Origin: Lacinutrix venerupis
GTDB taxonomy: Bacteria; Bacteroidota; Bacteroidia; Flavobacteriales; Flavobacteriaceae
NCBI RefSeq assembly: GCF_003663945.1
Contig: NZ_RCCH01000010.1
Coordinates: 1-64,000, forward strand
Reading direction: 5' to 3'
DNA length: 64,000 bases
The notes below the pieces were generated by a model. It ran no database searches and was not told where the DNA came from. It worked only from the letters and a program-made list of their open reading frames with translations. Shown piece by piece: positions 5,382 through 29,933 of this stretch (positions are counted from its first letter, which is position 1; each line of letters begins with the position of its first letter). Position numbers and translations under genes: made by a program.

Positions 5382-5398
5382 ATACAGGTAATTTGTGT
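5356..5398 (+). other. attL, left junction of the integrative element
   Basis: Host sequence AAAAGAATTAAC joins the core ATGT (5376-5379) and then the element arm TAAATACAGGTAATTTGTGT (5379-5398). The arm is the inverted counterpart of the right-end arm at 29652-29671, matching at 19 of 20 positions. The boundary is also fixed by where the host reading frame stops matching its family. Confidence 0.85.
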
Positions 5399-5422
5399 GT
5401 TAAATTAATAACTCATTTTAGC

Positions 5423-5430
5423 TATATTTG
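5423..5430 (+). promoter_or_regulatory. candidate -7 box (TATATTTG) just before the replacement gene
   Basis: TATATTTG fits the Bacteroidota TAnnTTTG -7 consensus and lies 3 bp before ATG 5434, so a transcript from it would be leaderless or nearly so. No well-spaced -33 TTTG is present (the nearest is 27 bp away inside the attL arm). Read-through from the host promoter of the broken gene is an equally good source of expression. Confidence 0.3.
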
Positions 5431-5433
5431 TTT

Positions 5434-8892: not shown

Positions 8893-8897
8893 AATTT

Positions 8898-9509
8898 TTA
8901 CTCCAAAATAACTTTTCTAAATGTTAATGATATCCTACGCTCACGGTTCCTTTTTGACTCATTAAATTTGTCAGATTTGCGAGAAGCAATACCATGTTCG
9001 TACAAATATCTAGATTCGTTACTAAATACTAACAACGACCTACGTTTAAGCAAAATACTAATCTTTTCTTTGGATTTAATATTTTTTATATCCATCACAG
9101 TGTCAGAAGCTAAACTTAAAGATATAATTGTCTCACTAAAACAGGGTTCACAATCTACATGCATCGCTATACCTTGTCCAGGCTCATAATTATTGACAAT
9201 AATTTGGTCGGGTATAAAATCAACAACACCTTTACTCAATAGCTTGTCACATAAACCCTTACTCCAATCGGGTAATTCACCTAACCTAAAGTTTTGATTA
9301 ATTTTCCTTGCTCGATAGTCATACTTATACCCATAGTGTTGAACTTTCCTTTTTAAATCATCCAACCAAGGTTGCTTATCAATAATATCGATAAGTGTTC
9401 TTTCTTCAGTTTCAGTGAGAAAATGCTCTTTATAAACTAGACCGTTTATTTGTGATACAAGTTCTTCATTAACCTCTTCATCTGTTTTATATGTTCCAAA
9501 TAAATCCAT
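8898..9509 (-). CDS. AlkB-type 2-oxoglutarate/Fe(II) dioxygenase
   Basis: 203 residues. AlkB-family enzymes oxidatively remove alkyl groups from nucleic-acid bases. The family residues are visible: N-x-Y-x2-G-x-G-x3-H-x-D (N106 or N107, Y108, G111, G113, H117, D119), the second iron histidine in YEHGI (H172), and the 2-oxoglutarate arginine pair R192-x5-R198 (RISLTFR). The length is typical of short bacterial AlkB homologues. It overlaps the stop of the large helicase gene by 1 bp (TAATG) and is followed by the DUF2779 gene after 5 bp, so the three are translationally tied. The substrate is unknown: repair of foreign or element DNA, or removal of a base mark, are both possible. Confidence 0.88.
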   Translation of the reverse strand: MDLFGTYKTDEEVNEELVSQINGLVYKEHFLTETEERTLIDIIDKQPWLDDLKRKVQHYGYKYDYRARKINQNFRLGELPDWSKGLCDKLLSKGVVDFIPDQIIVNNYEPGQGIAMHVDCEPCFSETIISLSLASDTVMDIKNIKSKEKISILLKRRSLLVFSNESRYLYEHGIASRKSDKFNESKRNRERRISLTFRKVILE

Positions 9510-13924: not shown

Positions 13925-13933
13925 ACAATTTCT

Positions 13934-14230
13934 TTAATTTTTTATTCCAATAAATAAATTATCTAAACTAGGCCCAGAACCCATAACAAGTTCATAGCAA
14001 ATAATATTTTTAGTGTCTTTGGATTCCAATTCTATAAACTTGATTATATCTCCTGTATACGCTTTTTCAACCCATTTCTTGCTAAACTCAAACTCACCAT
14101 CGTAATAAATAAACTCAGTAGCACTTGAAACCTCATTATTTACTTCATTTTCCTCATCAATTATAACTTCTCCTGTTATTGGACATTCAAAATACAATGG
14201 GCTATCTAGCAGTACTATTTCTTTTTTCAT
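13934..14230 (-). CDS. small acidic protein of unknown function
   Basis: 98 residues, acidic and rich in Glu/Asp, with no signal peptide or membrane segment. CPITGEVII near residues 16-24 is the only notable motif. It lies in the operon 11 bp after res and 9 bp before the helicase fusion, so it is the hinge between the restriction half and the processing half. It may be a small partner or regulator of either; I do not recognise a family. Confidence 0.65.
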   Translation of the reverse strand: MKKEIVLLDSPLYFECPITGEVIIDEENEVNNEVSSATEFIYYDGEFEFSKKWVEKAYTGDIIKFIELESKDTKNIICYELVMGSGPSLDNLFIGIKN

Positions 14231-14241
14231 TTTAAAAATTT

Positions 14242-17200
14242 TTACTTCATCAACACCTCATTAGTAACATCATCCATATTAGCAGCAACAATCATTTCAC
14301 TATCCAAAGCTGTAAAGTGTTTTTTACCACAATCTATTTTACCTTGTTCTTTTGGTCTTAAATCAAATAGTCCAGTACTTCCTTTAGATTCTACTACAAA
14401 GAATAGTTTTTCTTCATTTTCATCCTTCCAAAGAATAGCCCAATCTGGATTATAAGTTCCTAGAGGTGTATCAATCTTAAACCAGTTTGGTAGCTTGGCA
14501 TACACAGAAATATTTTCACTTTCTTCAAAATCGTTAGCTAGTGTAGATTCTACATTAGAATCATAGACAACATAGTCGTAAGGTGACTTTGTACTTTCTT
14601 TTAAGTTGTTTTTAAGATATCCGAATAACTCTTCATTTTCAAAAAGTTCTTGACTATAATATTCAGTATCATCAATCTTTTTGTATTGAATACCATCAAT
14701 AATATGCATTCGCATTTGCTCATTAATAATATCTATACAACCTTCAATAAATTTTTGAGGATTAATTTTAAAATACGGTAACCTAGTTGTTCCTGTAAGT
14801 ATTTCTACTATTGACTTTCTAGTTAGTTGCGTTTCATTTTGCAAATAGCCAACAATATCTGGAAGCACTTCTACTTCTTCATTTAATGTTTCGGTTCTAA
14901 CACTATTAGGTTTTATCTCGGCTTCAACACCTCCAATATCAATTGAAAGCGATGCTTTACTATAATGTAGTTTTCCTCTAGTAATTTTTAATCTATCATC
15001 TAATGCATTAATACACTCTTTTACTAAACTAGCTGAATCAAAATCTACAGAAAAAGTTGTTTTGTATTTTACACGTTCCCAAAGTGCTTTAAATTCTGGA
15101 CTGTCCAATACTCGTTTATTTACTTTTACTCTTTTCTTTTCGTCTTTATTTTTAATTTCGAGTTTACCAGCAGCATCTTTTAAATTACTTAATACTTGTT
15201 TTAAAACGTGTTTGTTTTCAGTAATTTCTTCTGGTAACTTAACATTATCATTTTTTAAGTCGGTTCTTAATTCGTCTTGCACTTTTCCTCTAGCATCAAT
15301 ATAGCCTTGAGTTAATAAATGCTTGAATAATTCTTCAGATTTTTTCTGACCTAAATACACTGGTGTTTCGTCTTCAATAGCCAACACCACATTAGCAAAA
15401 CTGTGGGACTCTAAAATTCCGAAACGGATACCAGTATCTGATTCTACTTCTTTTTGAAAGTTACTTACAAAATCGCTGTAAGATTCTGTAGCCATTACTG
15501 TAAGTGTATTGACTTCATGACCATAAATACGTTCTCCATCTTGGTTAACGCATAAACGCAAACCTCTACCAATTTCTTGTCTTCTTTTTATTTCTGAATT
15601 ACCAGCATCTTTAAGCGTACAGATTTGAAATACATTAGGATTATCCCATCCTTCTTTTAATGCTGAATGCGAAAAGATAAAACGTAATTTAGACTTGAAG
15701 CTTAACAGCATTTCTTTGTCTCGCATAATTAAACTGTAAGTATCTTCATCTGCTTTTACTTTTCCTGTGGTATCTTTAAAATACTCGAACTTGTCTTTTT
15801 TGTTACTGGATTTACTCTTTTTATCTATTGAGAAATATCCATTATGTACAGCCGAAGCATCTTTTTCATCATCGGTAATTTCTTCAAATAGACTTACATA
15901 TTTTGGTTTGGTAATTAGCTTTAAATACTCTTTTTCAAATATCTCGGCATACTCACCATTTTCAGCATTTCCTTCTTCATCGTACACACGGTACTTACTA
16001 ACAGAATCAATAAAAAACAAACTTAGTACTTTAATACCTTGAGGATTTAAAATAAGCTCTTTATCTAAATGCTCTTCAATTGTTTTACTTATTAAAGCTG
16101 TTTTTACTTGCTTTTCATCTACAGCACCAATGGACTGACCTAAACGAATTACATCTTCTTTACTTGTAAAATCTATATACTCATTACCATCTACAGCATG
16201 AATATCTTTTATTATATAGCCTTCGTACTCAATTCTATCTGTTAGTTGTTCTAAGTCTTCATTTTGCTTTACAGTGTAGGTTTTTCTGGTAATACTTCCA
16301 TTCTTAAACGCATCTACTTCTACTTTAGCCACTGGGAATCCTTTGCTAATTTTTACACTTACTAAACGAATATAAGCTTGATTGTTTACGCCTTCTGTTC
16401 GTACAGAACCAACTTCTATTTGTTTTACTAATTTTTTATCATAAGCATCAATAGCATCCAGCTTGTACATTAGGTTTACTTTTTCCTTATGTGTAGCAGA
16501 ATACCTAATAATAGATAATGGATGTAAACTTTGTACTGCTTTTTTACGAATAGGTGTACTCATGGTACTTTGTGGCTCATCTATAAAAACAACTGGATTT
16601 GTGTTTTTAATAAGGTCTAAAGGTTTGTACCCTAAACTATCGTTATATCTGTGAATAATATTGGTTTTATTATCCTTTTTAGGGTTTACAAAACTTTTAG
16701 AAAAGGCATCAATATTTATAACCATAATTTCTAAACCATCGTTGGTAGAAAAATCACGGACTTCGTTTAATTTACTACTATCGTAAATAAAGAAGTTGTA
16801 ATTAATATTATCGTACAACTGTTTAAAATGCTCCTTGGTAATTTCTAACGACTTATAAACACCTTCTTTAATAGGAATGGAAGGCACTACAATAATATGT
16901 TTAGAAAAGCCATATTTACGGTACAGCTCCATAATAGAACGTAAATACACATATGTTTTACCAGTACCAGTTTCCATTTCGATGGTAAAGTCTAAATGAT
17001 TTCGGTTAACCTCTTTACGTTCTGATGGTTTTAAACCATTGGCTAGTTGAATGTTTTGCACATTTTCTAGCAACTTACCTTCGCTTATCGTTAAACGGTT
17101 TCCATAACCAATTTCGTTAAACGATATATTATGTTGTTTTGCTAAAAACTCTGGAGAATACACCGTAAAATTAGCCTCACAAACTTCTTGACCTTGAAAT

Positions 17201-17265
17201 ATATCTACTATTGCGTTTATACCTTCTTTTTGGTAGTCTAACGCAGCATCAAATTGAATTTTCAT
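14242..17265 (-). CDS. type III restriction endonuclease-like subunit Res
   Basis: 1007 residues. It combines an SF2 translocase with a C-terminal nuclease, as in type III Res subunits that cleave DNA in complex with Mod. Walker A is METGTGKT (GTGKT at 100-104), motif II is DEPQ at 229-232, motif III is YSATH near 255, and the late helicase motif is RRQEIGRGLRL. The C-terminal PD-(D/E)XK nuclease is intact: NPDW with D941, then E959-S-K961. The length is normal. Mod genes lie immediately upstream in the operon (2-bp gap). All key residues are present, so the enzyme is probably active. Confidence 0.92.
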   Translation of the reverse strand: MKIQFDAALDYQKEGINAIVDIFQGQEVCEANFTVYSPEFLAKQHNISFNEIGYGNRLTISEGKLLENVQNIQLANGLKPSERKEVNRNHLDFTIEMETGTGKTYVYLRSIMELYRKYGFSKHIIVVPSIPIKEGVYKSLEITKEHFKQLYDNINYNFFIYDSSKLNEVRDFSTNDGLEIMVINIDAFSKSFVNPKKDNKTNIIHRYNDSLGYKPLDLIKNTNPVVFIDEPQSTMSTPIRKKAVQSLHPLSIIRYSATHKEKVNLMYKLDAIDAYDKKLVKQIEVGSVRTEGVNNQAYIRLVSVKISKGFPVAKVEVDAFKNGSITRKTYTVKQNEDLEQLTDRIEYEGYIIKDIHAVDGNEYIDFTSKEDVIRLGQSIGAVDEKQVKTALISKTIEEHLDKELILNPQGIKVLSLFFIDSVSKYRVYDEEGNAENGEYAEIFEKEYLKLITKPKYVSLFEEITDDEKDASAVHNGYFSIDKKSKSSNKKDKFEYFKDTTGKVKADEDTYSLIMRDKEMLLSFKSKLRFIFSHSALKEGWDNPNVFQICTLKDAGNSEIKRRQEIGRGLRLCVNQDGERIYGHEVNTLTVMATESYSDFVSNFQKEVESDTGIRFGILESHSFANVVLAIEDETPVYLGQKKSEELFKHLLTQGYIDARGKVQDELRTDLKNDNVKLPEEITENKHVLKQVLSNLKDAAGKLEIKNKDEKKRVKVNKRVLDSPEFKALWERVKYKTTFSVDFDSASLVKECINALDDRLKITRGKLHYSKASLSIDIGGVEAEIKPNSVRTETLNEEVEVLPDIVGYLQNETQLTRKSIVEILTGTTRLPYFKINPQKFIEGCIDIINEQMRMHIIDGIQYKKIDDTEYYSQELFENEELFGYLKNNLKESTKSPYDYVVYDSNVESTLANDFEESENISVYAKLPNWFKIDTPLGTYNPDWAILWKDENEEKLFFVVESKGSTGLFDLRPKEQGKIDCGKKHFTALDSEMIVAANMDDVTNEVLMK

Positions 17266-17267
17266 TT

Positions 17268-19232
17268 TTAAATACTTTTAATTTCTGTGATACCAAAACG
17301 TTTTAAAGTTTGTACCGAATTTGTTTTTTCTACATCTGTAAAGCCTGTATCCTTAAATATAACACGACACATTTCTGGTGCTAATTCTTTTTTCCACAAC
17401 CCAATACCTTCTGCAACTTTATTAGTTAAATTATTTCCTAAACAAATAAACAATGCACCAAAACCTACATTAAATACTGTTTTACCTTCAATAGTTTTTT
17501 CTTCTATTGGTAAGGTTAAATCTAAACCATATTTTAAAAGTATTTCGTACAATACATCTTCTTCTGTTCTGTCTGTTTTTATATTACTTACAGCATCCCA
17601 AAGGTTAGCTTCTAAATCTTCTGGGTTACCATCCCATCCTTTTATATTACTGCTATCTAGTTTGAACACTTTAAATCCTAAATCCAATTCTTTAGCTCTT
17701 TCTGGGTTTTCCTCTACTATCTTTTTTGCAGCTCTACGGATACGTTCTTTTCCTATTTCCGTAATTGTTTTATATCCAGCTTTAAAGGCTTCACTTTTTT
17801 CATAGACATGCTCTGGAAGTTGAATTTGAATATGTTTTCTATTTGATTTTTCTTCTAAATTTAATTTCATAGTTGCATGAGCTACAGTTGCTGAACCAGA
17901 GAAGAAATCTAATACAATATCATTTTCTTTAGTAAAACTACCAATATGTTGTTTGCAGACTTCTACAACTTTTGGCGTGTCAAATGGTATATCTAAATCT
18001 TCAAGTAGGGCAGTATCACTTCCTCCATAGTATAGTAGAGAAGGGATATTTTCAAACATGTTTTTAGATAATAAATATTTTTTTCTTGGCTGTATAGTCT
18101 CATCTTTACCAAACAAAACGAGGTTTTTGTCTAGTAATTCGTTCATTGTTGAACTTGGGTTCCTCCAGCCTCTTGGTGGTATAACACATTCCTTGTTTGT
18201 TTCTGGATGGATTAAAGGAACAAAGTAATCTTGAGGTGCTTTTTTCTTGTTTGGCCAAGCCATAGAGACTGATTGGTAAACATTTCCATTTTCATCCATT
18301 TTATTATAAGCTTTTTCCCCTCCACTAAATTCTGTTTTAGAGTTAATCCATTGAGAAAATTCTTTATTTATTTCCTCTAAAGAAGATTCACTTATTTTCT
18401 TAAATAAACTTTCTGCTTTTTTTAAAATAGTTTTCGCATTTTTTTTTGGTCTGACAAGTACAGTCTTTTCTAAAAAAGCTTCTTTACTTTTTGTAAATAC
18501 AAGAATGTTTTCATGTTGATATGCAATCCCTTTAGAATCCCCTTTTGGGTTTCTTTTATCCCAAATTATTGTACCTAAATCATTTTCCTCCCCATAAATT
18601 TCATTTAAAATTTTATGTAAATTTAGAACTTCATTCTCATCCATATTAACTAAAATAGCACCATCATCTTTCAATAAATTACGAGCCAAACGCAGACGAG
18701 GATACATCATATTCAACCAGTTAGAATGATAACGTCCGTCACTATCTGAGTTTGTGCTTAATTTATTTCCTTCTTCATCGAACTGTCCAGTAACTTCTTG
18801 GTAATTGCGTAAGTTATCTTTGTAATCATCTTTATATACAAAGTCCTTACCTGTATTATATGGTGGGTCTATGTAAATCATTTTTATTTTACCAGCATAA
18901 CTTTTTTGTAGCAGTTTCAACACTTCTAAGTTATCACCTTCTATGTATACATTTTCTGTAGTGTCCCAATCTACACTCTCTTCTTTAGCTGGGCGTAAAG
19001 TACCTGTGCTTGGTTTATGCGCTTCACGTCTGGCTTGTGCTTTACCAGCCCATGTAAAACGGTAGTATTCATCTTCTTCTTCAACTTCATCACCGAAAAC
19101 ATCTCTAAAGACATCAAAATCAATTTTGTTTTCGGTTATTAATTCTGGAAATAGCTCTTTAAGTTTTTCTATATTTTCTTGCAATAAATCTTTACTCATA
19201 GATAACTTACTGCCTTTTTTAATCTGTTCCAT
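17268..19232 (-). CDS. type III-like DNA methyltransferase Mod, copy 1
   Basis: 654 residues, beta-class adenine methyltransferase layout: DPPYNTG (D122-Y125) first, then a variable target-recognition region (about 215-435), then the SAM-binding FSGSAT (444-449). Mod modifies and recognises the site for the Res subunit encoded 2 bp downstream. The N-terminal 200 residues and the last 180 or so are nearly identical to copy 2, while the central region is unrelated. A small domain with FTWAGKAQARREA lies before the catalytic region. Together they look like a duplicated specificity gene sharing one Res. Confidence 0.93.
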   Translation of the reverse strand: MEQIKKGSKLSMSKDLLQENIEKLKELFPELITENKIDFDVFRDVFGDEVEEEDEYYRFTWAGKAQARREAHKPSTGTLRPAKEESVDWDTTENVYIEGDNLEVLKLLQKSYAGKIKMIYIDPPYNTGKDFVYKDDYKDNLRNYQEVTGQFDEEGNKLSTNSDSDGRYHSNWLNMMYPRLRLARNLLKDDGAILVNMDENEVLNLHKILNEIYGEENDLGTIIWDKRNPKGDSKGIAYQHENILVFTKSKEAFLEKTVLVRPKKNAKTILKKAESLFKKISESSLEEINKEFSQWINSKTEFSGGEKAYNKMDENGNVYQSVSMAWPNKKKAPQDYFVPLIHPETNKECVIPPRGWRNPSSTMNELLDKNLVLFGKDETIQPRKKYLLSKNMFENIPSLLYYGGSDTALLEDLDIPFDTPKVVEVCKQHIGSFTKENDIVLDFFSGSATVAHATMKLNLEEKSNRKHIQIQLPEHVYEKSEAFKAGYKTITEIGKERIRRAAKKIVEENPERAKELDLGFKVFKLDSSNIKGWDGNPEDLEANLWDAVSNIKTDRTEEDVLYEILLKYGLDLTLPIEEKTIEGKTVFNVGFGALFICLGNNLTNKVAEGIGLWKKELAPEMCRVIFKDTGFTDVEKTNSVQTLKRFGITEIKSI

Positions 19233-19235
19233 AAA

Positions 19236-21173
19236 TTAAATACTTTTAATTTCTGTTATACCAAAACGCTTTAAGGTTTGTACCGAATTTGTTTTTTCTA
19301 CATCTGTAAAGCCAGTATCTTTAAAAATAACACGACACATTTCTGGATTTAGGTCTTCTTTCCACTTACCAATACCTTCTGCAACTTTGCTAGTTAGGTT
19401 ATCGCCTAAACAAATAAATAAAGCGCCAAAACCTACATTAAATACTGTTTTGCCCTCTATGGTTTTTTCTTCTATTGGTAAGGTTAGGTCTAAACCGTAT
19501 TTTAAGAGTATCTCGTACAATACATCTTCTTCTGTTCTGTCTTTTTTTATATTACTTACAGCATCCCAAAGGTTAGCCTCTAAATCTTCTGGATTACCAT
19601 CCCAACCTTTTATATTACTACTATCTAGCTTAAACACTTTAAAACCTAAATCTAAGTTTTTTACTTTTTCTGGATTTTCTTCTGTTATTTTTTTTGCTGC
19701 TCTGCGGATGCGTTCTTTTCCTAATTCTGTTATCTTTTCATAACCTTCTTTAAAGGCAAGATGTTTTTCATTTATAAGTTCGGGTAATTGAATTTGAATA
19801 AATTTTCTTTGAGAATTTTTCTCTGAGTTGACTTCTGATACAGCATGAGCTGTTGTTGCAGAACCAGAGAAAAAATCTAAGACTATGTCAGATGGACTTG
19901 TACCACAAAGTATTAGTTTTTTAATGAAGTGTTTTGATTTTGGAAAATCCATCACATTCTTGTTAAATAATTCCTTTATAGATTTTTTTCCGTAATCGTT
20001 ACTTATTTCTTTCTCATTCCATAAAGATTTGGGTAATGTCAATGCAGTATTTCCATCTTCATCAAATAAGTAATCTTTTCTAAACACTTGCCAATGATTA
20101 TTTATTTGCGCAGCAACTAAAAGATGATTGTCTGAAGTCACTTTATCTTTACCCCAAGTCCAACATGTTTTTACTCCTTCAATTGTTTCTGGAAGTGCCG
20201 TTTCTGTATATGTACTATCTTTAATTACAGAAACACTTAGTGTTTCTGGACATATAAAAATAGGGTAGTAAAGATTTGGTCGAGTGATAGGATTAAATGC
20301 TTGATTTCTATTCCTTAACCCTAATACCCTATGAGCACCTCTTTCATCATTTCTGTCATATTCATCAACCATTTTTCCAGTTTTTTCTAAACCATACATA
20401 GTCGAACTTTTAGAAGTATTTTTTCCATATATCAATAAAGTCTCATGAGTTTTGGCAACAAAATCATCTAAATGTCTTCCTCTAGGGTTCAACTGAACGG
20501 CTAAACTTGCAATGAAATTTGATTCTCCATATAATTCATCGCATATTTTTTTTAAATTATAAGATTCATTATCATCAATACTCATAAAAATCACACCATC
20601 CTCTTTTAATAAATTACGAGCTAAACGCAAACGAGGATACATCATATTTAACCAATTAGAATGGTAACGCCCATCACTATCGCTATTGGTACTTAATTTA
20701 TTACCATCATTATCAACTTGCCCAGTAACTTCTTGATAGTTTCTTAAATTATCTTTATAATTATCCTTATATACAAAGTCTTTACCTGTATTATATGGTG
20801 GGTCTATATATATCATTTTTACTTTACCAGCATAACTTTTTTGTAATAGTTTTAAGACTTCTAGGTTATCGCCTTCAATGTATACATTTTCTGTAGTGTC
20901 CCAATCTACACTCTCTTCTTTTGCTGGACGCAAAGTACCTGTACTAGGTTTATGCGCTTCACGTCTGGCTTGTGCTTTACCAGCCCATGTAAAACGATAG
21001 TATTCATCTTCTTCTTCAATATCTTCACCTAAAACGTCTTGCAATACAGTAAAGTCTATTTTGCCTTCGGTAACAATTTCTGGAAAAAGTTGTTTAAGCT
21101 TTTCTATGTTATCGGCTACTAAATCTTTGCTTTGCGTTAGGTTATCGCCTTGTTGTATTTTATCTATGCTCAT
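19236..21173 (-). CDS. type III-like DNA methyltransferase Mod, copy 2
   Basis: 645 residues with the same architecture as copy 1: DPPYNTG at 124-130 and FSGSAT at 435-440. The recognition region between about 218 and 430 differs in both sequence and length from copy 1, so it should read another DNA target. The C-terminal block from FKVFKLDSSNIKGWDGNPED to the end FGITEIKSI is almost identical to copy 1. The start codon overlaps the stop of the DUF4391 gene by 4 bp (ATGA). The gap to copy 1 is 3 bp. It is catalytically complete. Confidence 0.93.
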   Translation of the reverse strand: MSIDKIQQGDNLTQSKDLVADNIEKLKQLFPEIVTEGKIDFTVLQDVLGEDIEEEDEYYRFTWAGKAQARREAHKPSTGTLRPAKEESVDWDTTENVYIEGDNLEVLKLLQKSYAGKVKMIYIDPPYNTGKDFVYKDNYKDNLRNYQEVTGQVDNDGNKLSTNSDSDGRYHSNWLNMMYPRLRLARNLLKEDGVIFMSIDDNESYNLKKICDELYGESNFIASLAVQLNPRGRHLDDFVAKTHETLLIYGKNTSKSSTMYGLEKTGKMVDEYDRNDERGAHRVLGLRNRNQAFNPITRPNLYYPIFICPETLSVSVIKDSTYTETALPETIEGVKTCWTWGKDKVTSDNHLLVAAQINNHWQVFRKDYLFDEDGNTALTLPKSLWNEKEISNDYGKKSIKELFNKNVMDFPKSKHFIKKLILCGTSPSDIVLDFFSGSATTAHAVSEVNSEKNSQRKFIQIQLPELINEKHLAFKEGYEKITELGKERIRRAAKKITEENPEKVKNLDLGFKVFKLDSSNIKGWDGNPEDLEANLWDAVSNIKKDRTEEDVLYEILLKYGLDLTLPIEEKTIEGKTVFNVGFGALFICLGDNLTSKVAEGIGKWKEDLNPEMCRVIFKDTGFTDVEKTNSVQTLKRFGITEIKSI

Positions 21174-21940
21174 ACTGTGGTGAGTTGTTGCTTAATGCGT
21201 TCTATTTGTTGTCGCTTTTTCTGTATGGCTACATTTAAAGCTACTTTGTTATTTAGTTGTTTTTCTTTACTTAACTGGCTTTTAAGGCTAGTTATTTCGG
21301 TTTCTATGTTTTCTATGGCTAATAAATTAGCCATATCTGCTTCCGTACGTTTTTGGCTTCGTTTATTAAAACTACCTGTACTTTGTGCTACTTGGTGTTG
21401 TACTACTGCTTGTATGTAACTTTTATATGTGGTTTCTAGATTGGTTTTATCTAGTGTATTAAAATCTAAAGCTTTAAAAAAAGCTTCGGTTTGCTCGTTT
21501 TTATAAAGTTTAGATATTGCTGAGGTATTAAACTGTTGGTCTACTACCAATTTATTATTATCTACTTGGTTAATGCGTTTTTCGGCTACATTGATAACAA
21601 AATCGTTACCGTCTTCAACTACCAGTACAACTTGATGCGCAATATATTTTTGAATGAATTGCGCACAGTTTTCAGCATGCTTTTCTAACTGGTTATTATT
21701 AATACTACACGTAATTATTAAAATATTCTCGTAACTATCGGTTTCTGTTACTACTGCTGGAATATTAGTTTTCTCTAGATTAACTTGCCCCAATATTTCC
21801 ATAGCGACAATAGCATTGTTTAGCAACTTTTTTTCAGCACTGGAAAGGCTAAAATTCCGAAGAAAAAAAGCTTTAGTTAACCGTTGCGCTACCAAACTAC
21901 GGTCTGGTATTTTAAATATGTTATTAAACGAATTACTCAT
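21170..21940 (-). CDS. DUF4391 domain protein
   Basis: 256 residues. It matches the DUF4391 family, which is repeatedly found between SNF2-type helicases and type III-like mod/res genes. The start (FKIPDRSLVAQRLTKAFF) and the central VVVEDGNDFVINVAEKRIN region look family-typical. The C-terminal 50 residues form a charged coiled coil (IETEITSLKSQLSKEKQLN). No catalytic motif is evident, so an accessory or assembly role is likely. It begins directly after the helicase stop and overlaps mod copy 2 by 4 bp. The family assignment rests on sequence feel plus context. Confidence 0.75.
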   Translation of the reverse strand: MSNSFNNIFKIPDRSLVAQRLTKAFFLRNFSLSSAEKKLLNNAIVAMEILGQVNLEKTNIPAVVTETDSYENILIITCSINNNQLEKHAENCAQFIQKYIAHQVVLVVEDGNDFVINVAEKRINQVDNNKLVVDQQFNTSAISKLYKNEQTEAFFKALDFNTLDKTNLETTYKSYIQAVVQHQVAQSTGSFNKRSQKRTEADMANLLAIENIETEITSLKSQLSKEKQLNNKVALNVAIQKKRQQIERIKQQLTTV

Positions 21941-24900
21941 TTATTTTATAATTAAATAACTGACTAGCTCTAAAGCTTCATCATTATCCATGTTTTTATT
22001 TGCTAAATTAATTGCACCACGAGTAGCCAACATATCTAAACCAACTTCTTCTTGTACACCAACTACATCTTTTAATGATGCTTTTAATAGTTGAGTATAG
22101 GCTTGCATTTTTTTAGTTGCTTTGGTTTCTTTTTCAAATTCGGCAACTAAATCTGGTAACACTTTATCGTTACCCATGCATAGTTTTCTAAAATAATCTA
22201 GTGCTATTTTAGTTTGTGCAGCTGTAACGCTTTCTTTACCATCTAGACTAGCATATACTAAGAAGTATGGATATAAAATGTTGTTTTTAAGCTTATCGCT
22301 TATATCGTTGCTAGTATCTTTTAAACAGAAAATTACACCTTCTTTAACGCTGTCTAAATTAGATTTTACAATAGCATAAGATGCTGGTGGAATTTCGTTT
22401 AAAGCTTCTATTTGTGCATCGCTACTTTTTTCTAAATCTATTTTAAAATCGTTAAAAGTCATATCGGTAATAGAAATATTACCATTAATATCTTCTAAAT
22501 CTAGTACTTGGTCTTGTAGCTGTTTTAATTGGCGTTTACGATAATCTAAATCTTGCATTTCACGACTATTTCTAGAAATTACATTATCTTCTCCAGTAGC
22601 AGAAACATCTAGCATAACCATACGTCCTTTTACTTTTGCTACTAAGTCTATAAAACTATCAAGCTCCATACTTGGAAAAAAATTAACCAGCTGTATTTGC
22701 TCGTTAATAGAACCAATACGGTCTATACGCCCAAAACGTTGAATGATGCGTACTGGATTCCAGTGAATATCATAGTTTACTAAATAATCGCAATCTTGTA
22801 AGTTTTGACCTTCTGAGATACAATCTGTACAGAATAAAATATCTATTTCAGATTTTACATCTGGATACACATCTTTTCTTTTTTTAGATAACGGTGAAAA
22901 ATGAGTTAATATAGAGTTGAGGTCGTTTTTGCAATTTTTCATGTTGGTTTTGTTGTGACCAGAACCAGTAACTAATGCAGTATTTAAACCTTTTTCTTTT
23001 TTTAGCCAGTCGCTTAATTCATTGTACATGTAATTTGCTGTATCTGCAAAGGCAGTAAATACAATTACTTTTTTATTGTTTCCGTTTAGTGGGTTTTCTA
23101 ATTTACCTTCAATTAGGCTTTTTAATTTTAAGAGCTTTGCATCGCGTTTTACATCTATAAGCTTGATACTTGCTAGTATGTTTGTTAAAATGCTTTTATC
23201 GTGCTTTAAATCTTGTTTCCAGCGTATGCCATCAATATCTTGAATAAGTACTTTTGTTTTACCACCAATTAGTAAATCTTCTAAAGTGGTATCATCAATA
23301 TCTATATCTGTAATATTGGTGTCTAAATCTATATCTCCATTTTTATGCTCTTCTAATTGTTTTAAATTAGAGTTAACTAGAGCAATTAGTTTTTCTACGG
23401 TAAGTTTAAATGAATGTATAGAACTTTCTAAACGTTTTAAAAGGTTAACACGCATTAAGTATATTAAACTCTGCTCTCTGTCTACTTGTTTAAAAACACT
23501 ACCAGTATGCGTTTGCATATCGTATTTTTCTTCGTAAAAATCACGCTTATGAGGCATTACGTATCCTAACGGTGTATAAGACGCTAGTGTTAGTGTACTA
23601 ATCTCATCGTAAATCTGACCAATATCTTTAAACTGATTTTTAGTGTCAATTTCTGGATGTATAGTAATAGGTGCTAAACGATTTGGAAACTTACCAATAT
23701 CTGTAGTGTCGTAATATTTTTCAATATGTTTTCTAGACCTTGCGATGGTTAGCATATCTAGAATTCTAAAATAAGCACCATCTAAATGTTGCATCAGTTC
23801 ATTTACATCTAAATCGTCTGGGTCTCCATCTCTAAACCAATTAGTAAAGCGACGTTGAGAATCTTTCATTACTTGAGATACGCTATTAATACCATGTGAA
23901 GCAAACGCAGCGTCATCACCTTCAGTTATAAAGGCTATTTGATTTTTCAAGTCATTCATTTTATTGTTAACTGGAGTGGCAGATAACATTAAAACTTTAG
24001 TACGAATATTTGCCTTGATAACATCTTGCATCAAACGTTTATAGCGTGTCATCCCTTTTTTAGTAGGATTGTTTCTAAAGTTATGAGATTCATCAATTAC
24101 AACTAAATCGTAATTTCCCCAATTAATAGTTTCTAAATCTATATCACCAGATTTTCCACGAACTCTAGACAAATCTGTATGATTAAGCACGTTGTAGTTT
24201 AATCTGTCTTCTGCTAAAACATTGCGTTTATCATTTAGCGTATAAACCGTCCAGTTTTCTCTAAGCTTTTTAGGAGCTAAAACTAAAATTCTACTATTAC
24301 GTAATTGATAATATTTAATAACACCTAAAGCTTCAAAGGTTTTACCTAAACCAACGCTGTCTGCAATTACACAGCCACCATAAGCTTCAATTTTTTCAAT
24401 TGCACCAATTACAGCATCCTTTTGAAAATTATACAGTAGACTCCATATTTTAGAGTTTTTAAAACCTACTTTTTCAAGTTTTTCATCTGCTCGTTCGTTA
24501 ATTGTAGAGTATTGGAAAATTTCACGAATACAGTATTTATAAATAGCTTCACCAGTAAAATTTGAAGTTCCTTTTTCGAGTTCTTCTACAACCATATCAT
24601 TTAAAGATTGACTACTGTTTTCCCAAGCGTTTTTAAACAATGTTAAATATGTGCTATTGGAATCATCCAAAGCGTTTATAAGTACTGGAAACTGAGAAGG
24701 TAAAAGACCCAAACTTACAGAGTCTAAATTTAACGGTGTAAGTGTGTAGCAAGTTGAGTTATCTTCATTTTCTATAATTAAGATATTTTGATTTGCAGTA
24801 CTTCCTTTTCTAAACTGGATTTTATCTTCTATTAAACCAATAACTTGATTTATTTTATATTTTCTATCTAATGCTAAGTTTAATTTTTGCTCAGCACTGT

Positions 24901-25099
24901 TTTGGATAAACTGAAAATCCTCTTCTGATTTTAAATCTAATAAAATATTTACTTGACTAGATTTTTTTAGCACTTCAATTAATTCAAAAACAGCAAAAGC
25001 AGTAAAGAAATTACAGCTTATGTAGACCTTAGATTTTTCATTAATTAAACTTTTGATTTCATCGATTAATAGGGTGTCTTGGTTGTTGATTAATTTCAT
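21941..25099 (-). CDS. SNF2-family helicase with N-terminal PLD-like domain
   Basis: 1052 residues. The first 190 or so resemble a phospholipase D-like nuclease domain (KVYISCNFFTAFAVFELIE), but I do not see a clean HxK motif, so it may be non-catalytic. The SNF2 ATPase follows: DSVGLGKTFEALG near 245, VIDESHNFRN near 333, LMLSATPVNN, and the helicase C half with EGQNLQDCDYLV and RIIQRFGRIDRIGS near 790. Proteins of this layout accompany DUF4391 and type III-like R-M genes and resemble DISARM-type DrmD in being SNF2 helicases, but no DUF1998 genes are here. It overlaps the XRE gene by 4 bp. Confidence 0.88.
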   Translation of the reverse strand: MKLINNQDTLLIDEIKSLINEKSKVYISCNFFTAFAVFELIEVLKKSSQVNILLDLKSEEDFQFIQNSAEQKLNLALDRKYKINQVIGLIEDKIQFRKGSTANQNILIIENEDNSTCYTLTPLNLDSVSLGLLPSQFPVLINALDDSNSTYLTLFKNAWENSSQSLNDMVVEELEKGTSNFTGEAIYKYCIREIFQYSTINERADEKLEKVGFKNSKIWSLLYNFQKDAVIGAIEKIEAYGGCVIADSVGLGKTFEALGVIKYYQLRNSRILVLAPKKLRENWTVYTLNDKRNVLAEDRLNYNVLNHTDLSRVRGKSGDIDLETINWGNYDLVVIDESHNFRNNPTKKGMTRYKRLMQDVIKANIRTKVLMLSATPVNNKMNDLKNQIAFITEGDDAAFASHGINSVSQVMKDSQRRFTNWFRDGDPDDLDVNELMQHLDGAYFRILDMLTIARSRKHIEKYYDTTDIGKFPNRLAPITIHPEIDTKNQFKDIGQIYDEISTLTLASYTPLGYVMPHKRDFYEEKYDMQTHTGSVFKQVDREQSLIYLMRVNLLKRLESSIHSFKLTVEKLIALVNSNLKQLEEHKNGDIDLDTNITDIDIDDTTLEDLLIGGKTKVLIQDIDGIRWKQDLKHDKSILTNILASIKLIDVKRDAKLLKLKSLIEGKLENPLNGNNKKVIVFTAFADTANYMYNELSDWLKKEKGLNTALVTGSGHNKTNMKNCKNDLNSILTHFSPLSKKRKDVYPDVKSEIDILFCTDCISEGQNLQDCDYLVNYDIHWNPVRIIQRFGRIDRIGSINEQIQLVNFFPSMELDSFIDLVAKVKGRMVMLDVSATGEDNVISRNSREMQDLDYRKRQLKQLQDQVLDLEDINGNISITDMTFNDFKIDLEKSSDAQIEALNEIPPASYAIVKSNLDSVKEGVIFCLKDTSNDISDKLKNNILYPYFLVYASLDGKESVTAAQTKIALDYFRKLCMGNDKVLPDLVAEFEKETKATKKMQAYTQLLKASLKDVVGVQEEVGLDMLATRGAINLANKNMDNDEALELVSYLIIK

Positions 25100-25296
25100 T
25101 TAGCGGTTTGGTTATCAATTAATAGGTCTTTCACACTAACGTTTAGAAGCTCTGCAATTTCAAATAACACTTCAACTCTAGGTTGTCTTCGATTAGCAGC
25201 ATAACTATTTACCATGTTATAGCTTTTACCAAGTCTTTCAGCAAGTAAAGATTGCTTTATGCCTTTTTCATTTAGAACTTCTTTAATACGATTCAT
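25096..25296 (-). CDS. XRE-family helix-turn-helix regulator
   Basis: 66 residues making a single HTH_3 domain: QSLLAERLGKSYNMVNSYAA is the helix-turn-helix. It is the first gene of the leftward operon and its stop overlaps the helicase start (ATGA). Small XRE proteins in this place commonly delay restriction relative to methylation, as C proteins do. A 9-3-9 inverted repeat sits 34 bp upstream and could be its operator. Confidence 0.9.
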   Translation of the reverse strand: MNRIKEVLNEKGIKQSLLAERLGKSYNMVNSYAANRRQPRVEVLFEIAELLNVSVKDLLIDNQTAK

Positions 25297-25409: not shown

Positions 25410-25622
25410 ATGAAACAAAAAAACTATTTCGAATTCAAGCATATAATTGAATTAACTGGTATATCTGAGCGTACTTTTAGATACCGAATGAAAGCGATTA
25501 AAGAAAAGTATAAAGACCAACCAGAACTACTATTTAAGAAAAGGCATAGCTGGAGAATACACCACAGTTTACTTTTTGAATTTAATCACAAGTACCAAAT
25601 AAATAATACCAATAAAAACTAA
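25410..25622 (+). CDS. small HTH protein, candidate excisionase/directionality factor
   Basis: 70 residues, strongly basic. IIELTGISERTFRYRMKAI is a helix-turn-helix, followed by a wing-like RHSWRIHHSLL. This is the format of AlpA/Xis-like small DNA-binding proteins. It is divergent from the XRE operon and heads the rightward set that ends with the integrase. Large serine integrases need a separate small protein for excision, so that role is plausible, but such factors share no common sequence and this is an inference. Confidence 0.7.
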   Translation: MKQKNYFEFKHIIELTGISERTFRYRMKAIKEKYKDQPELLFKKRHSWRIHHSLLFEFNHKYQINNTNKN

Positions 25623-25627
25623 AACAT

Positions 25628-26020
25628 ATGGAATCTATTATAAAAAATATAGAATTAATGTACACTCCGTATACCAAAGAATTATTAATAAAATACGTTA
25701 ACTTACAATATGAAGAAGATGCCGACTTTAGCGATGAAAGTCTAAAAACCGAACTCCTTTGGTTATATGAAAACAATGAGCTTGACCGATTGATACTTGC
25801 GGAGTATTTAGACTCAGACGCTTTAAAAATGAATATTTCTAATAAAACGAAAACAAACAATGCATCATCAAGCAAGCCATTAACACAACAACGATTATCA
25901 ACATTAATCAAGTCTAAACTTGAAGAAGTTGATGGCGCTTTGTATGATTGTACCGTTACAGATTACCAACTATTAAAAAGTAATAACGGATTGTTTAATA
26001 TACTAATACCCTTAAAATAA
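25628..26020 (+). CDS. hypothetical protein of the integrative element
   Basis: 130 residues, acidic in the first half (YEEDADFSDESLKTELLWLYENNELDRL, helical), with a Ser/Thr/Lys/Asn linker near 75-90 and a compact C-terminal part. There is no signal, membrane segment or known motif. It starts 5 bp after the HTH gene, so the two are co-transcribed. It may be a replication or recombination accessory. I do not recognise it. Confidence 0.65.
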   Translation: MESIIKNIELMYTPYTKELLIKYVNLQYEEDADFSDESLKTELLWLYENNELDRLILAEYLDSDALKMNISNKTKTNNASSSKPLTQQRLSTLIKSKLEEVDGALYDCTVTDYQLLKSNNGLFNILIPLK

Positions 26021-26358
26021 CTAGCTATACACTTTCGAGTACATTCTCTTTATTTTACCCTACCTATGTTTTAACGGAGGGAGTAACCCCTCTTACAGCA
26101 CCTCCCTCCGTTATCCCTAGGGTACCATTTGATGCTTTAAACGTACTTTTTTTTGTACTCTAGCCCTCACGTATTTGCTAACATGCAATTTTATAATAAA
26201 CCGCTAAAACACTAAAAAGAAGCCGTTTTTTAATAATTGACACCATGATGAAAAAACTTTCGATACAAAAAGGGTATAAAATTTATATAGACATGCAATT
26301 TACTTTTAGTTATAGACATAGTATATTTAGAGCAGCTTAGTTAATTAAGCGTTATACA
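26021..26358. other. noncoding block with strong hairpin, putative replication origin
   Basis: 338 bp without a convincing gene. TAACGGAGGGAG (26072-26083) and CTCCCTCCGTTA (26102-26113) form a perfect 12-bp inverted repeat around an 18-nt spacer. Nearby are the palindromes CCCTAGGG (26115-26122) and GGTACC (26121-26126), and a GTAC-T8-GTAC element. The 11-mer ACATGCAATTT is repeated directly at 26181 and 26291, 110 bp apart. The GC-rich island stands out in AT-rich surroundings and lies right before a polymerase-like gene, as an origin often does. A 31-codon frame at 26245-26340 is present but unconvincing. No T tract follows the hairpin, which argues against a simple terminator. Confidence 0.45.
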
Positions 26359-27747
26359 ATGAAGAAAACAGGTTACAAAAAATATAGAACTATACATTTA
26401 CCAAAAGTAATTGTAGATAACCTATTATTAAAATTACAAGTTGGGTTGGCAGATTTTGATTATAATATAGAAGTCTTTTTTTCTATTATAAATGAAATAC
26501 TAACGAAGAGTGCTGTATACAATAAACAAAATGAAGATTACATGTATCAATTTACTCCATTGGACTCAAGGTATCTTAAAGTTAAATATGGCAATAGTTA
26601 TACTAGTTATATCCGATTTTTAGTTAATCAAGGTGTTATATGGAATGATAATTATTATCAAGGTAAGACAACATATTATTACTTATATAATTTAGATTAT
26701 TATATAAATAATACTAATACACTATATAATATAAATAAAGAAATTACTAGCTCTACCTATTGTTTCCCAGATAGCATTACAATAACAACCTCAAGCCATA
26801 AAAACATTAAGAAAACAGACAATCAAAAAAATAGGATTTATAATGATTGGTATAGTATAAAAATATTGATAAATTCTAAAAACACTAGCTATTTAACCTC
26901 TAGCTATGAGCAAGATTCAATGTTTATAAATAACGCACCTAAGCATATCAAAAAAATGGGGAGTCATTTTAGAAAACATTTTAAATTACATCATGAAGAA
27001 GCTCTAAGGTTTATTGAGAACCAATATAGAACAAATATTGGATTAGCTTTAACTGATGATGACAGAAATAGAACGAATCGAAAATACACCTCTAGGTTGT
27101 CTTCTGTTTTAGCTATTGATAATGGAAAAGTGAATAAAACACTTAAATTTAGTAAAAACTCAGCTAACAATAGAATTGACACCAATCTTACTTTTATGGC
27201 TAGTGAGTTAAGGCAATTTATTATTGGTTACGAGAATATGGTTTATTTAGACTTAAAAAACTCTCAACCTGTGATGCTTAATATTATTTTAAAAGACCAT
27301 TATAAGGACGCGAATACAGATTTAAAAAGTGAAATTGATGAGTGTTTTAAGCATACTATGGAAGGTAAATGGTATGAACATTTGCAGCAATTATATGGTA
27401 AGACGAGAGAAGAATGTAAAGACATTTGGATGTGTATCGCTTATTCGAAAAACACAAGTTATTTAGAGATAAAGAAAACATTTAAAAAAGCTTACCCTGG
27501 TATTAATGCTATTATAGAGTCTTACAAAAAAAAGAAGCATGGTGATTTTTCGGTTAAACTAACACAGATTGAGTCCAAAATTTTTATTGATGGCATTTGT
27601 CGTGAATTGGTTAATCAAAATATTATTCCATATACTATACATGACTCTGTAATTGTGCCTAAAAAAGATAAAGCAAAAACTTTAAATATAATGCGAGCTG
27701 TTTTAGAAAAATATTTTAGTGCTGTTCCTGTTATAAGTGAGGAATAA
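26359..27747 (+). CDS. polymerase-like protein with family-A/T7 RNA polymerase palm motifs
   Basis: 462 residues. The C-terminal half shows the motif set of the DNA polymerase A/T7 RNA polymerase superfamily in order. Motif A is YLDLKNSQPVML (D298). Motif B is R350-x3-K354-x3-M358-x3-Y362, the same spacing as R627/K631/M635/Y639 of T7 RNA polymerase and R754/K758/F762/Y766 of E. coli Pol I. A YPGI block (379-382) resembles the YPGV of Pol I. Q403 sits where Pol I has Q849. Motif C is IHDS (H428, D429), as in T7 RNA polymerase, where Pol I has HDE. There is no 3'-5' exonuclease. Residues about 60-110 could be a winged helix (SYIRFLVNQGVI). It lies between a possible origin and the integrase. 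Inference: a replication protein of the excised element. DNA versus RNA synthesis cannot be told. Confidence 0.7.
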   Translation: MKKTGYKKYRTIHLPKVIVDNLLLKLQVGLADFDYNIEVFFSIINEILTKSAVYNKQNEDYMYQFTPLDSRYLKVKYGNSYTSYIRFLVNQGVIWNDNYYQGKTTYYYLYNLDYYINNTNTLYNINKEITSSTYCFPDSITITTSSHKNIKKTDNQKNRIYNDWYSIKILINSKNTSYLTSSYEQDSMFINNAPKHIKKMGSHFRKHFKLHHEEALRFIENQYRTNIGLALTDDDRNRTNRKYTSRLSSVLAIDNGKVNKTLKFSKNSANNRIDTNLTFMASELRQFIIGYENMVYLDLKNSQPVMLNIILKDHYKDANTDLKSEIDECFKHTMEGKWYEHLQQLYGKTREECKDIWMCIAYSKNTSYLEIKKTFKKAYPGINAIIESYKKKKHGDFSVKLTQIESKIFIDGICRELVNQNIIPYTIHDSVIVPKKDKAKTLNIMRAVLEKYFSAVPVISEE

Positions 27748-27786: not shown

Positions 27787-29649
27787 ATGTTAGGAATATA
27801 CTGTAGAACTTCAAAGAATAGGGCTGAAAAATACACTATAGAAAACCAACGAGAGGGAGGAATTAAATGTGCAATAGAGCTAGGTCTAGAATACATTATT
27901 TATATTGATGATGGGATTAGTGGAACTCTAGATGAAAGCGTGAGGGACGGCTTGTCTGATTTGTTTAGAGATATTAGAAAAAATAAAATAACTCATATCT
28001 ATTGTATAGACCAATCTAGAATAGAAAGAGACACTAGAACTTGGGATTTCTTTGTTGCTGAATGTTTAAATAAGGAAATAAAATATTATCCAAACGGTTC
28101 TTTTTTCGCTTTAGATAATCCTACTAATAGGATGTTTGCTAGCTTGATGTCTGTTGTAAATGCTTATTACGCAGAAATAACCTCTAAAAAAGTAAGATTG
28201 GCAAATGCTCGTAAAGCTAAAGAAGGAAAGACGCATGGTATTAAACCATATGGTTATACTAAAGGAATCAATAATGAATATAAAATTGAAGAAAACGAAG
28301 CTGTTCATGTTAAACGTATGTTTAAATTATCTTTAGATGGAATTGGAGCTTATACTATAGCTAATATTTTAAATGAAGAAGGTATTCCTACAAAATTTAG
28401 TAAGAATTTTAAAGGTAAAATTAAAAGAAAAGACGAGTACACTGGTGCCATAACATATCATGATAAAAGTACTATTAAATGGCGAGGGAATGTAATAAGT
28501 GATATTCTAAGAAATAAAATTTATAAAGGAATACGAGAATGGAATCGAAATGAAGATAAAATTGAGAATATTAATGGTAAGCCTGTTAAAACAAAAGTTA
28601 AAGTTGAGCTTATAACTTCAAAAGTACCACACATTATTGAGCCAGAATTATGGGATAAAGTTCAAGCTAATTTATCCGTAAACAAAAAGAATGTTGGTAA
28701 AAAATCACAGTATAATTACCTTTTAAATGGCTTAGTGAAATGTCATCATTGTGAGCGATTATTTGTAGGTAAAAGGCGCAAAGGAAGTCGTGACAACTCA
28801 TATAAATGTAAAGGAAAAGTTTATCCTAATTCGAATTGTGATAAATCACGAAGTATCAACATAAACAAGTTAGATACATTTATTATTAAACACCTCTTTA
28901 TTTCTAAGAGTTTAAAAGGACACCTAGATAGCTTACCTAAAACTGAAAGTAAACATGATAGACTAAAAATTAAATTGGATGAAGAGAAAAGTATTCTAAA
29001 AAAAATAGAAAAGAAATTAGATAAAGGATATAAATTATTATTCAATGAAGATTCTGGGTTTAAAGATGATGAAGTTGTACAATCAAATGTTTTAAAATTA
29101 AAGAACAAGAAAAAAGAAAAATCTGAAGTAGTTACTAAATTAGAACAAGAATTGTTATTGGCTGAATCTAGTTTTAGAGATTCGAGAACAGAAAGATTAC
29201 TAAGTGAATATACAGATGAATCTACCTTTGATGATATAAAAAGAATAATTCATTCATTAATTGATTATATTAAAATAGAACATCATAAAGAGGAAGGTAA
29301 GATGGGCACGTTCCTTTTAAACATAAAGTATAAAGGGTATGATGAGGTTATATCATTTATGACCAATTGGCATGCTAATAAATGGTATTGGATTTCTAAG
29401 TATAGAAAAGGCGCTAATACACCACAAGAATTGGAAGATGATAGAGAAATGGATAAGGCCTTACTAAAGCAATTTGGTATGAATAAAGATGATATCGAAT
29501 TGACTGGGTTTCAAAAAGAAAGTGGACTTACAGATGACGAAATAGCAAAAATGAATCCTTTTAGCTCCAAATATGAAGGGGCTGAAACTAAGGAATTCAT
29601 ATATGATTTGATAGAATTAAAAACTGAAGAAATTATTGATTTTAATTAG
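27787..29649 (+). CDS. large serine recombinase (integrase)
   Basis: 620 residues. The resolvase domain (1-150) has the catalytic YCRTS (Ser9) and DQSRIERDTR. The recombinase domain (about 160-290) carries GIKPYGYTKG and IANILNEEGIPT. The zinc ribbon has Cys319, Cys322, Cys341 and Cys351, and a long coiled coil follows at about 370-465, the part that controls direction in this class. It ends with an acidic tail. It catalyses attP x attB recombination with a short core. Its stop lies 2 bp from the right arm of the element, the standard location for such integrases. A 39-bp gap separates it from the polymerase-like gene, so the two are probably co-transcribed. Confidence 0.95.
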   Translation: MLGIYCRTSKNRAEKYTIENQREGGIKCAIELGLEYIIYIDDGISGTLDESVRDGLSDLFRDIRKNKITHIYCIDQSRIERDTRTWDFFVAECLNKEIKYYPNGSFFALDNPTNRMFASLMSVVNAYYAEITSKKVRLANARKAKEGKTHGIKPYGYTKGINNEYKIEENEAVHVKRMFKLSLDGIGAYTIANILNEEGIPTKFSKNFKGKIKRKDEYTGAITYHDKSTIKWRGNVISDILRNKIYKGIREWNRNEDKIENINGKPVKTKVKVELITSKVPHIIEPELWDKVQANLSVNKKNVGKKSQYNYLLNGLVKCHHCERLFVGKRRKGSRDNSYKCKGKVYPNSNCDKSRSININKLDTFIIKHLFISKSLKGHLDSLPKTESKHDRLKIKLDEEKSILKKIEKKLDKGYKLLFNEDSGFKDDEVVQSNVLKLKNKKKEKSEVVTKLEQELLLAESSFRDSRTERLLSEYTDESTFDDIKRIIHSLIDYIKIEHHKEEGKMGTFLLNIKYKGYDEVISFMTNWHANKWYWISKYRKGANTPQELEDDREMDKALLKQFGMNKDDIELTGFQKESGLTDDEIAKMNPFSSKYEGAETKEFIYDLIELKTEEIIDFN

Positions 29650-29651
29650 AT

Positions 29652-29692
29652 ACACAAATTACCCGTATTTATATGTTTTTACGCTGGATGGT
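29652..29692 (+). other. attR, right junction of the integrative element
   Basis: The element arm ACACAAATTACCCGTATTTA (29652-29671), one T, then the core ATGT (29673-29676) and host sequence TTTTACGCTGG. Joining the two element arms gives a nearly palindromic attP of 44 bp with TATG at its centre. Joining the host sides gives an attB that restores the host reading frame. Confidence 0.85.
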
Positions 29693-29933
29693 AAGAAACG
29701 ACAATACTGGAGTAGATTTTGGTATTTGGAAAACATTATCACCATCACAATTATCTTGTCCGTTAGATGTGCATTCTGGCAATGTAGCAAGAAAACTAGG
29801 TTTATTACAACGCAAACAAAATGATGGTAAAGCTTTAACAGAACTAGATAATGCATTAAGAAAAATGGATAAAAACGATCCTGTTAAATATGATTTTGCA
29901 TTATTTGGATTAGGTGTGTTTGAAGGTTTTTAA
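29673..29933 (+). pseudogene. TIGR02757/DUF2400 gene, 3' fragment
   Basis: 86 in-frame codons from the core ATG, continuing the host gene broken at 5378 (FLRWMVRNDNTGVDFGIWK through SCPLDVHSGNVARKLGL to LGVFEGF). The core ATG happens to be a native Met codon, so the fragment could be translated alone from integrase read-through. Such a product would lack the N-terminal two thirds and is unlikely to function. The intact element copy at 5434 covers the same region. Confidence 0.9.

Follow-up and report, generated by a model that had tools for sequence, protein, structure and literature searches.

A compact polymerase with a predicted family-A core and winged-helix front domain on a 24.3-kb serine-recombinase element of Lacinutrix venerupis

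The name TV-Pol was given in 2008 to a group of minimal family-A polymerases from transposons and viruses (Iyer, Abhiman and Aravind, PMC2579912). There, they are described as proteins of 400-600 residues whose genes neighbour a resolvase, integrase or transposase, whose hosts include Bacteroidetes and which are also present on SCCmec; phage Ma-LMM01 is listed as a TV-Pol host. CCPol, an SCCmec protein counted among the TV-Pols, has polymerase activity and together with MP primes DNA de novo; according to the 2020 eLife paper, it was until then the sole TV-Pol characterised biochemically (PMC7581432). PolA-SSB primases have been surveyed as well, all surveyed examples being from Bacillota (PMC10061031), and phages contribute the further divergent family-A members divPolA1 and divPolA2 (PMC11348598). 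A 2026 census distinguishes the groups PolA1, PolA2, PolA3 and PolA1-like and does not use the terms TV-Pol and CcPol (PMC12926913). Our literature search, with most subscription papers beyond its reach, found no paper on the subfamily described here.

Here, we have analysed a stretch of 64,000 nucleotides of Lacinutrix venerupis (the window), in which positions 26359-27747 of the forward strand encode a compact protein of 462 aa that motifs, alignment and predicted fold point out as a family-A polymerase. Re-read from the sequence, this ORF lies exactly where a sequence-only reading had put it, and the motifs named there were all found again, namely YLDLKNSQP (with D298), R350-x3-K354-x3-M358-x3-Y362, YPGI and HDS (with H428 and D429). 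That reading had proposed a polymerase of compact size on an integrative element, with a palm of family A and no exonuclease, and the predicted model, the PDB matches and the mapped ends of the element support this. It had also called the protein far smaller than known members, which fails in view of the length described for TV-Pol. Nor is a new kind supported, TV-Pol and CCPol-MP having been described before (PMC2579912, PMC7581432); in our view, the protein represents a branch, with a winged helix, of a kind already on record.

The conserved residues were taken from two alignments. Alignment A5 holds the window protein and 31 relatives, located by BLAST or profile and none of them by polymerase motifs, with L025 and both pieces of L039 excluded (three of 34 candidates). 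Six residues do not vary in its 32 rows (R272, D298, Y339, E405, H428, D429), and six others (T278, S302, Q303, K354, F375, P380) are kept in at least 90%; since these relatives were not picked by motif, the invariance goes beyond chance. Alignment A9 has 68 rows, the window protein and 67 of the 117 ORFs of at least 380 aa among 130 matches in 125 loci, after pairs at 72% identity or more had been reduced and L177 and L186 omitted. Its invariant NSQP is partly so by construction, because the rows from named genomes were collected with the pattern D[ILV][KR]NSQP. R272, D298 and D429 are invariant across A9, too, and K354 is found in 68 of 68 rows, while residue 350 is R in 54, K in 13 and E in one, and residue 362 is F in 56 and Y in 12. 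Residue 358, an M in the window protein, is F in 28 rows, Y in 25, M and L in seven each and I in one.

Database searches were largely silent on this family. For the 462-aa protein, neither Pfam nor the PDB sequences gave a match at the limits used, the sole NCBIfam line was a chance-level cytidine deaminase (E 0.095), the best PHROG was an unnamed one (E 0.0026), and no PADLOC family matched. When the 32 members were scanned at E 0.01, none matched an NCBIfam model and Pfam returned two unrelated family names (in two members and in one). In the PHROG scan of the same 32 members, two matched one unnamed PHROG (best 1e-6), two single members matched other unnamed ones, and a PHROG annotated as DNA polymerase I matched one member at 0.002. 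Neither phmmer nor hmmsearch against PDB sequences found a polymerase; hhalign of the family profiles with the host PolA gave probabilities of 1.2 and 3.8%, and with other settings the E-value was 0.89, no better than recombinase and HTH controls. The window protein shares the polymerase-core fold with DNA polymerase I but is without its exonucleases, and none of the 32 members matched PF00476 (DNA_pol_A) at E 0.01. One ordinary PolA match lies elsewhere in the same genome; the host thus has its own PolA, and the 462-aa protein is an extra enzyme.

The sequence routes to Pol I having failed, the predicted structure decided the assignment. The AlphaFold2 model, built on the 68-sequence alignment (pLDDT 86.7, pTM 0.85), comprises a predicted winged-helix domain (residues about 1-128), thumb helices (about 177-253) and palm and fingers (about 264-462). 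Thumb helices 212-229 and 233-253 precede the palm, R272 adjoins strand 273-275, which itself comes after strand 264-266, D298 is on strand 294-299, residues 350-362 are helical, and H428 and D429 are at the hairpin 425-427/430-434. The modelled order is thus thumb helices, R272 hairpin, D298 strand, fingers helix 350-362, long E405 helix and H428-D429 hairpin, the same order as in the family-A layout. Of the arrangement which the sequence-only reading had expected, D298 and D429 meeting in a palm beside the motif B helix, the model bears out a part, namely the helix at 350-362 and a D298 strand and H428/D429 hairpin that follow the succession known from family A.

With Foldseek, 102 PDB matches were found at E<=0.001. 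All of the best 50 are Pol I-type DNA polymerases of family A, with E-values from 3.9e-6 upwards and TM-scores, normalised by query length, of 0.30-0.42, and a family-B fold as in piPolB was not seen among them. Against the viral structure models, the top match was an unnamed 409-aa protein (E 6e-25), the second was labelled a putative DNA polymerase I from a marine phage, and the replication protein of the Zamilon virophage was matched at 1.2e-4. The best 50 matches also bear on the T7 RNA polymerase to which the sequence-only reading had leaned. A single-subunit, T7-like RNA polymerase which transcribes the element or primes it with RNA could account for M358, at the place of M635 in T7 RNA polymerase (in the numbering of that reading), and for Q303, kept in at least 90% of the A5 rows, which by spacing from the motif A aspartate is at the place of the Pol I ribose gate E710. 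Residue 358, by spacing at the place of Pol I F762, is M in the window protein, but 53 of the 68 A9 rows have F or Y there. With this and with no T7-like RNA polymerase among the best 50 of 706 PDB matches at E<=10, the lean is not supported and we consider an RNA polymerase unlikely.

For the front domain, the modelled succession of helix, helix, strand, helix, helix, strand, strand in residues 1-128 is that of a winged helix. PDB matches to this part were weak, none of them reaching E 0.001; six of the first 16 were titled DNA-binding protein N-terminal domain, initiator or Rep-DNA complex, with CodY, MAGE and MarR-type proteins also ranking among the weak matches. The six entries with such titles are presumably plasmid RepA proteins.

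Comparison with TV-Pol reveals a row of common features. Both are minimal thumb-palm-fingers cores without nuclease, the 462 aa of the window protein falling into the range of 400-600 aa, and both have two catalytic Asp, here the invariant D298 and D429 on a modelled strand and hairpin, an absolutely conserved Arg at the beta-hairpin before the palm, here R272, and RxxxK in the fingers, here 350/354. They also share a location on elements with resolvases or integrases and in hot spots that contain restriction-modification operons, and Bacteroidetes among their hosts. The two differ in that the TV-PolN domain, found in a subset only, is predicted to be all-helical whereas our front domain is modelled as a winged helix, and in that a D5 helicase is linked to a subset of TV-Pols while none is linked to the window polymerase or was found among the element genes scanned. 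The fingers Asp described for TV-Pol, a site known from the text description, has no such column among those conserved in A5. Profile comparison brought the two families closer together. From its motifs and a neighbouring transposase, MAP_030 is the putative TV-Pol of the Microcystis phage Ma-LMM01, and the A9 profile matched a four-row alignment of MAP_030, a near-identical copy and two plasmid homologs at E 7e-7 with a probability of 91.9%; with other settings the E-value was 3.9e-9, against 0.54-0.96 for recombinase and HTH controls. The MAP_030 set itself gave a probability of 0.7% against PolA. Single-sequence ranks were not significant: hmmsearch with A5 against Ma-LMM01 ranked MAP_030 first at E 0.053, A5 over 946 ORFs ranked the Calothrix protein, MAP_030 and the Polaromonas protein second to fourth (E 0.013, 0.089 and 0.37), and A9 over the same 946 ORFs listed, of the MAP_030-type proteins, that of Polaromonas alone (E 0.54). 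Taken together, we hold the kinship of the window family with TV-Pol to be very probable.

The MAP_030-type proteins of Calothrix and Polaromonas are encoded on plasmids of 13.7 kb and 11.2 kb, respectively, each with a resolvase or recombinase gene. A replication protein is annotated on the Polaromonas plasmid too, and no initiator is annotated on that of Calothrix. The annotation given to the Polaromonas protein itself, Clp protease N-terminal domain protein, looks mistaken.

With CCPol-MP and the PolA-SSB primases, the window protein has in common a family-A core on an element of a large serine recombinase (PMC7581432, PMC10061031). As described there, SCC ends are degenerate inverted repeats and most of these elements have restriction-modification genes, and the window element is alike in both. 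By contrast, CCPol is followed by an OB-fold partner and then a helicase, while in the window the serine recombinase comes next; beside the window polymerase, neither an SCC-type helicase nor any gene at the position of the OB-fold partner was found. CCPol moreover has a partial exonuclease domain in its front part, from which the front part of the window protein differs. The phage group divPolA2 resembles our family in that it has a palm of family A and its own N-terminal domain, lacks an exonuclease and is an additional phage polymerase (PMC11348598). Its representative has 430 aa and letters in motifs A and C that differ from those of the window family. Membership in divPolA2 was considered and is unsupported (probability 19.5% and E 0.0012 for our profile against a single divPolA2 sequence), and no divPolA2 relatives were found in viral contigs.

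The polymerase gene is part of an element of 24.3 kb whose two ends could be mapped. The left end (5375-5403, forward strand) consists of the core ATGT at 5376-5379 and a terminal inverted repeat, and the right end (29647-29676, reverse strand) of the inverted repeat 29647-29675 and the core ATGT at 29673-29676. The left end matches the reverse complement of 29647-29675 in 24 of 29 positions, and the best score of a 24-base inverted repeat, 21, was matched by none of 2000 shuffles. Outside the ends lie the two parts of an interrupted host gene of TIGR02757, the N-terminal one at 4869-5381 and the C-terminal one at 29673-29933 (PF09674, 1.6e-39), both on the forward strand. Directly inside the left end, an intact foreign TIGR02757/DUF2400 copy is found (5428-6204, forward strand, above the TIGR02757 cut-off). 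Each of 12 other genomes of the genus has one intact TIGR02757 gene, to which the split halves are closer than the carried copy in 12 of 12 cases. From the split gene, the ends and the more distant carried copy it follows that, most likely, the element entered this gene and brought a replacement for it. The carried copy being complete, insertion into TIGR02757/DUF2400 may leave the gene function intact.

Most of the cargo is encoded on the reverse strand. Next to the carried copy is a small serine resolvase (6210-6803, PF00239, 1.9e-24), followed at 6928-14230 by genes for a DUF2779 protein, a 2OG-Fe(II) oxygenase, a 1471-aa helicase/nuclease/methyltransferase protein and a 98-aa ORF without Pfam match. 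A type III restriction-modification system (14242-21173, PADLOC REase_III and MTase_III) is made up of Res (14242-17265) and two tandem Mod genes (17268-19232 and 19236-21173), and it is followed by a DUF4391 protein and an HKD+Snf2 helicase (21170-25099; PF14335, 3.3e-41; PADLOC C3a139, 6.9e-119) and by an HTH_3 regulator (25096-25296; PF01381, 6.2e-13). By eye, the tandem Mod genes (17268-21173) have long, near-identical N- and C-terminal stretches and differing middles, a pattern which looks as if recombination could swap specificities. The forward strand then encodes a 70-aa protein that is HTH-like by eye (25410-25622) and a 130-aa protein (25628-26020), both without Pfam match. After them come a noncoding block at 26021-26358, the polymerase gene and, beginning 39 bases after it as the next gene, a large serine recombinase, the integrase (27787-29649, forward strand; PF00239, PF07508, PF13408). 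The polymerase ORF is flanked, as had been read from the sequence, by hairpin-containing noncoding DNA on one side and this recombinase on the other.

The noncoding block (forward strand), a candidate origin or control region, contains a hairpin at 26072-26113 and two copies of ACATGCAATT. Its DNA fold has a z-score of -1.91, with three of 100 shuffles folding equally well. Rfam gave a single chance-level match, lying outside the block, and a search of the other 396 family genomes yielded just seven short matches of 21-40 bases in seven genomes, two of which were inspected and look like coding sequence by eye. The block can be aligned with the Tenacibaculum soleae locus L135, where the same module is found: a resolvase, the same small genes (the 70-aa protein has a phmmer match upstream of the L135 polymerase, and the 130-aa protein is matched by two L135 ORFs), the alignable noncoding block, the polymerase and, on the other strand, a large serine recombinase. 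In L135, an ORF at 13777-14409 which by eye resembles a truncated DUF72 protein adjoins the recombinase and is perhaps the integration target of that element.

The cargo differs between the T. soleae and window elements, and genes resembling type I restriction-modification by eye occur in L135 and L009. Together with the type III and Snf2 defence genes in the window element itself, these would suit a polymerase that belongs to the anti-phage cargo rather than to element replication. Such a defence role is unlikely in our opinion, given that no PADLOC family matches, that the two kinds of neighbour counted, recombinases and small HTH genes, are found repeatedly near the relatives and that the family is also found in jumbo-phage genomes.

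Relatives were searched for on several levels. The single-sequence search was positive in three of 99 relatives' genomes, the own genome counted, and the profile search of the window's family, the Flavobacteriaceae, in 36 of 397 genomes, with the own genome and two seeds counted. One IMG/VR contig carries a relative at 37% identity, one Hymenobacter plasmid carries a member, 68 IMG/VR loci form a jumbo-phage branch, and 56 loci come from named genomes, the nearest being T. soleae at 56%; in all 125 loci (IMG/VR, jumbo-phage and named genome), the profile finds a match at E 1e-5. One named locus is titled as a Methanosarcinaceae bin, and the titles of the other 55 we take to be those of Bacteroidota. 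Within flanks of up to 10 kb, 44 of the 56 named loci have a recombinase gene (tyrosine in 39, serine in seven, some with both; background rate not measured), 39 have one within 3 kb, and seven of the 12 loci free of recombinases are sequences shorter than 15 kb. Tyrosine integrases being most of these, the recombinase type seems exchangeable. An HTH gene lies at most 1 kb upstream of the polymerase in 23 of the 56 named loci, again with the background rate not measured. This polymerase subfamily is widespread in Bacteroidota and is missing from the libraries searched (Pfam, NCBIfam, PADLOC).

Jumbo phages, which have been surveyed before (PMC7824862), carry a branch of their own (L007, L008, L013, L014 and L063-L130) in records of up to 735 kb, with a member of roughly 400-430 aa. 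The huge-phage relatives are in five uncultured records of 635-735 kb, two of which agree in length and in the position of the match. All 11 jumbo-phage records tested have a family-B polymerase match, and none matches PF00476 or PF07733. The member may be the primase of these phages, as none of the 11 records matches DNAG_N, but six match Toprim_2, five of them above the cut-off. With family B in every one of the 11 records, the family-A member is an additional polymerase there, and the idea that it is the sole DNA polymerase of the 735-kb phages was rejected. In several of these records, the family-B matches sit in two distant reading frames. On the Hymenobacter plasmid, a separate replication initiator is annotated, and a role as plasmid Rep is unsupported for it. 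A repair or gap-filling polymerase acting around recombination, and not a replicase, would explain the link to recombinase genes, but plasmid and jumbo phages retain a family member, and serine recombination is free of gaps that would need filling; this explanation we judge to be unlikely.

We therefore favour, as the probable reading, a compact, exonuclease-free DNA polymerase of the TV-Pol kind belonging to the 24.3-kb serine-recombinase element, with a front domain that binds element DNA and a core that primes or extends DNA. The probable target of the winged helix is DNA of the element, for which the noncoding block directly upstream is the candidate. The thumb-palm-fingers core would prime and/or extend DNA, whether on the excised circle or on single strands coming in, and the host would provide the remainder of the replication machinery. 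We infer catalysis, the DNA site, priming and the use of dNTPs rather than NTPs; the evidence in hand comprises the predicted fold, the conserved catalytic residues and the mobile-element context. More tentatively, and with a low probability, the protein may be an initiator and a polymerase in one, a Rep-like winged helix on the origin joined to a family-A core that starts DNA without primase, SSB partner or helicase. The idea of an element-borne polymerase with a possible primer-free start is shared with piPolB (PMC10061031), which differs in being of family B, our protein being of family A with a putative priming activity. The parallel to piPolB drawn in the sequence-only reading is apt, but had been drawn already for PolA-SSB primases (PMC10061031).

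What is new here is the winged-helix front domain and the spread across Bacteroidota and jumbo phages, and likewise the mapping of a 24.3-kb element which has inverted repeats at its ends and carries, besides type III restriction-modification, a foreign and intact copy of its target gene. As a small stand-alone protein adjoining a block common to two elements, the polymerase makes self-priming by family A directly testable. Its gene is a landmark for the annotation of defence-carrying elements with serine and tyrosine recombinases. Were it an initiator-polymerase, it would be a family-A counterpart of piPolB in elements of Bacteroidota and, beside family B, in jumbo phages.
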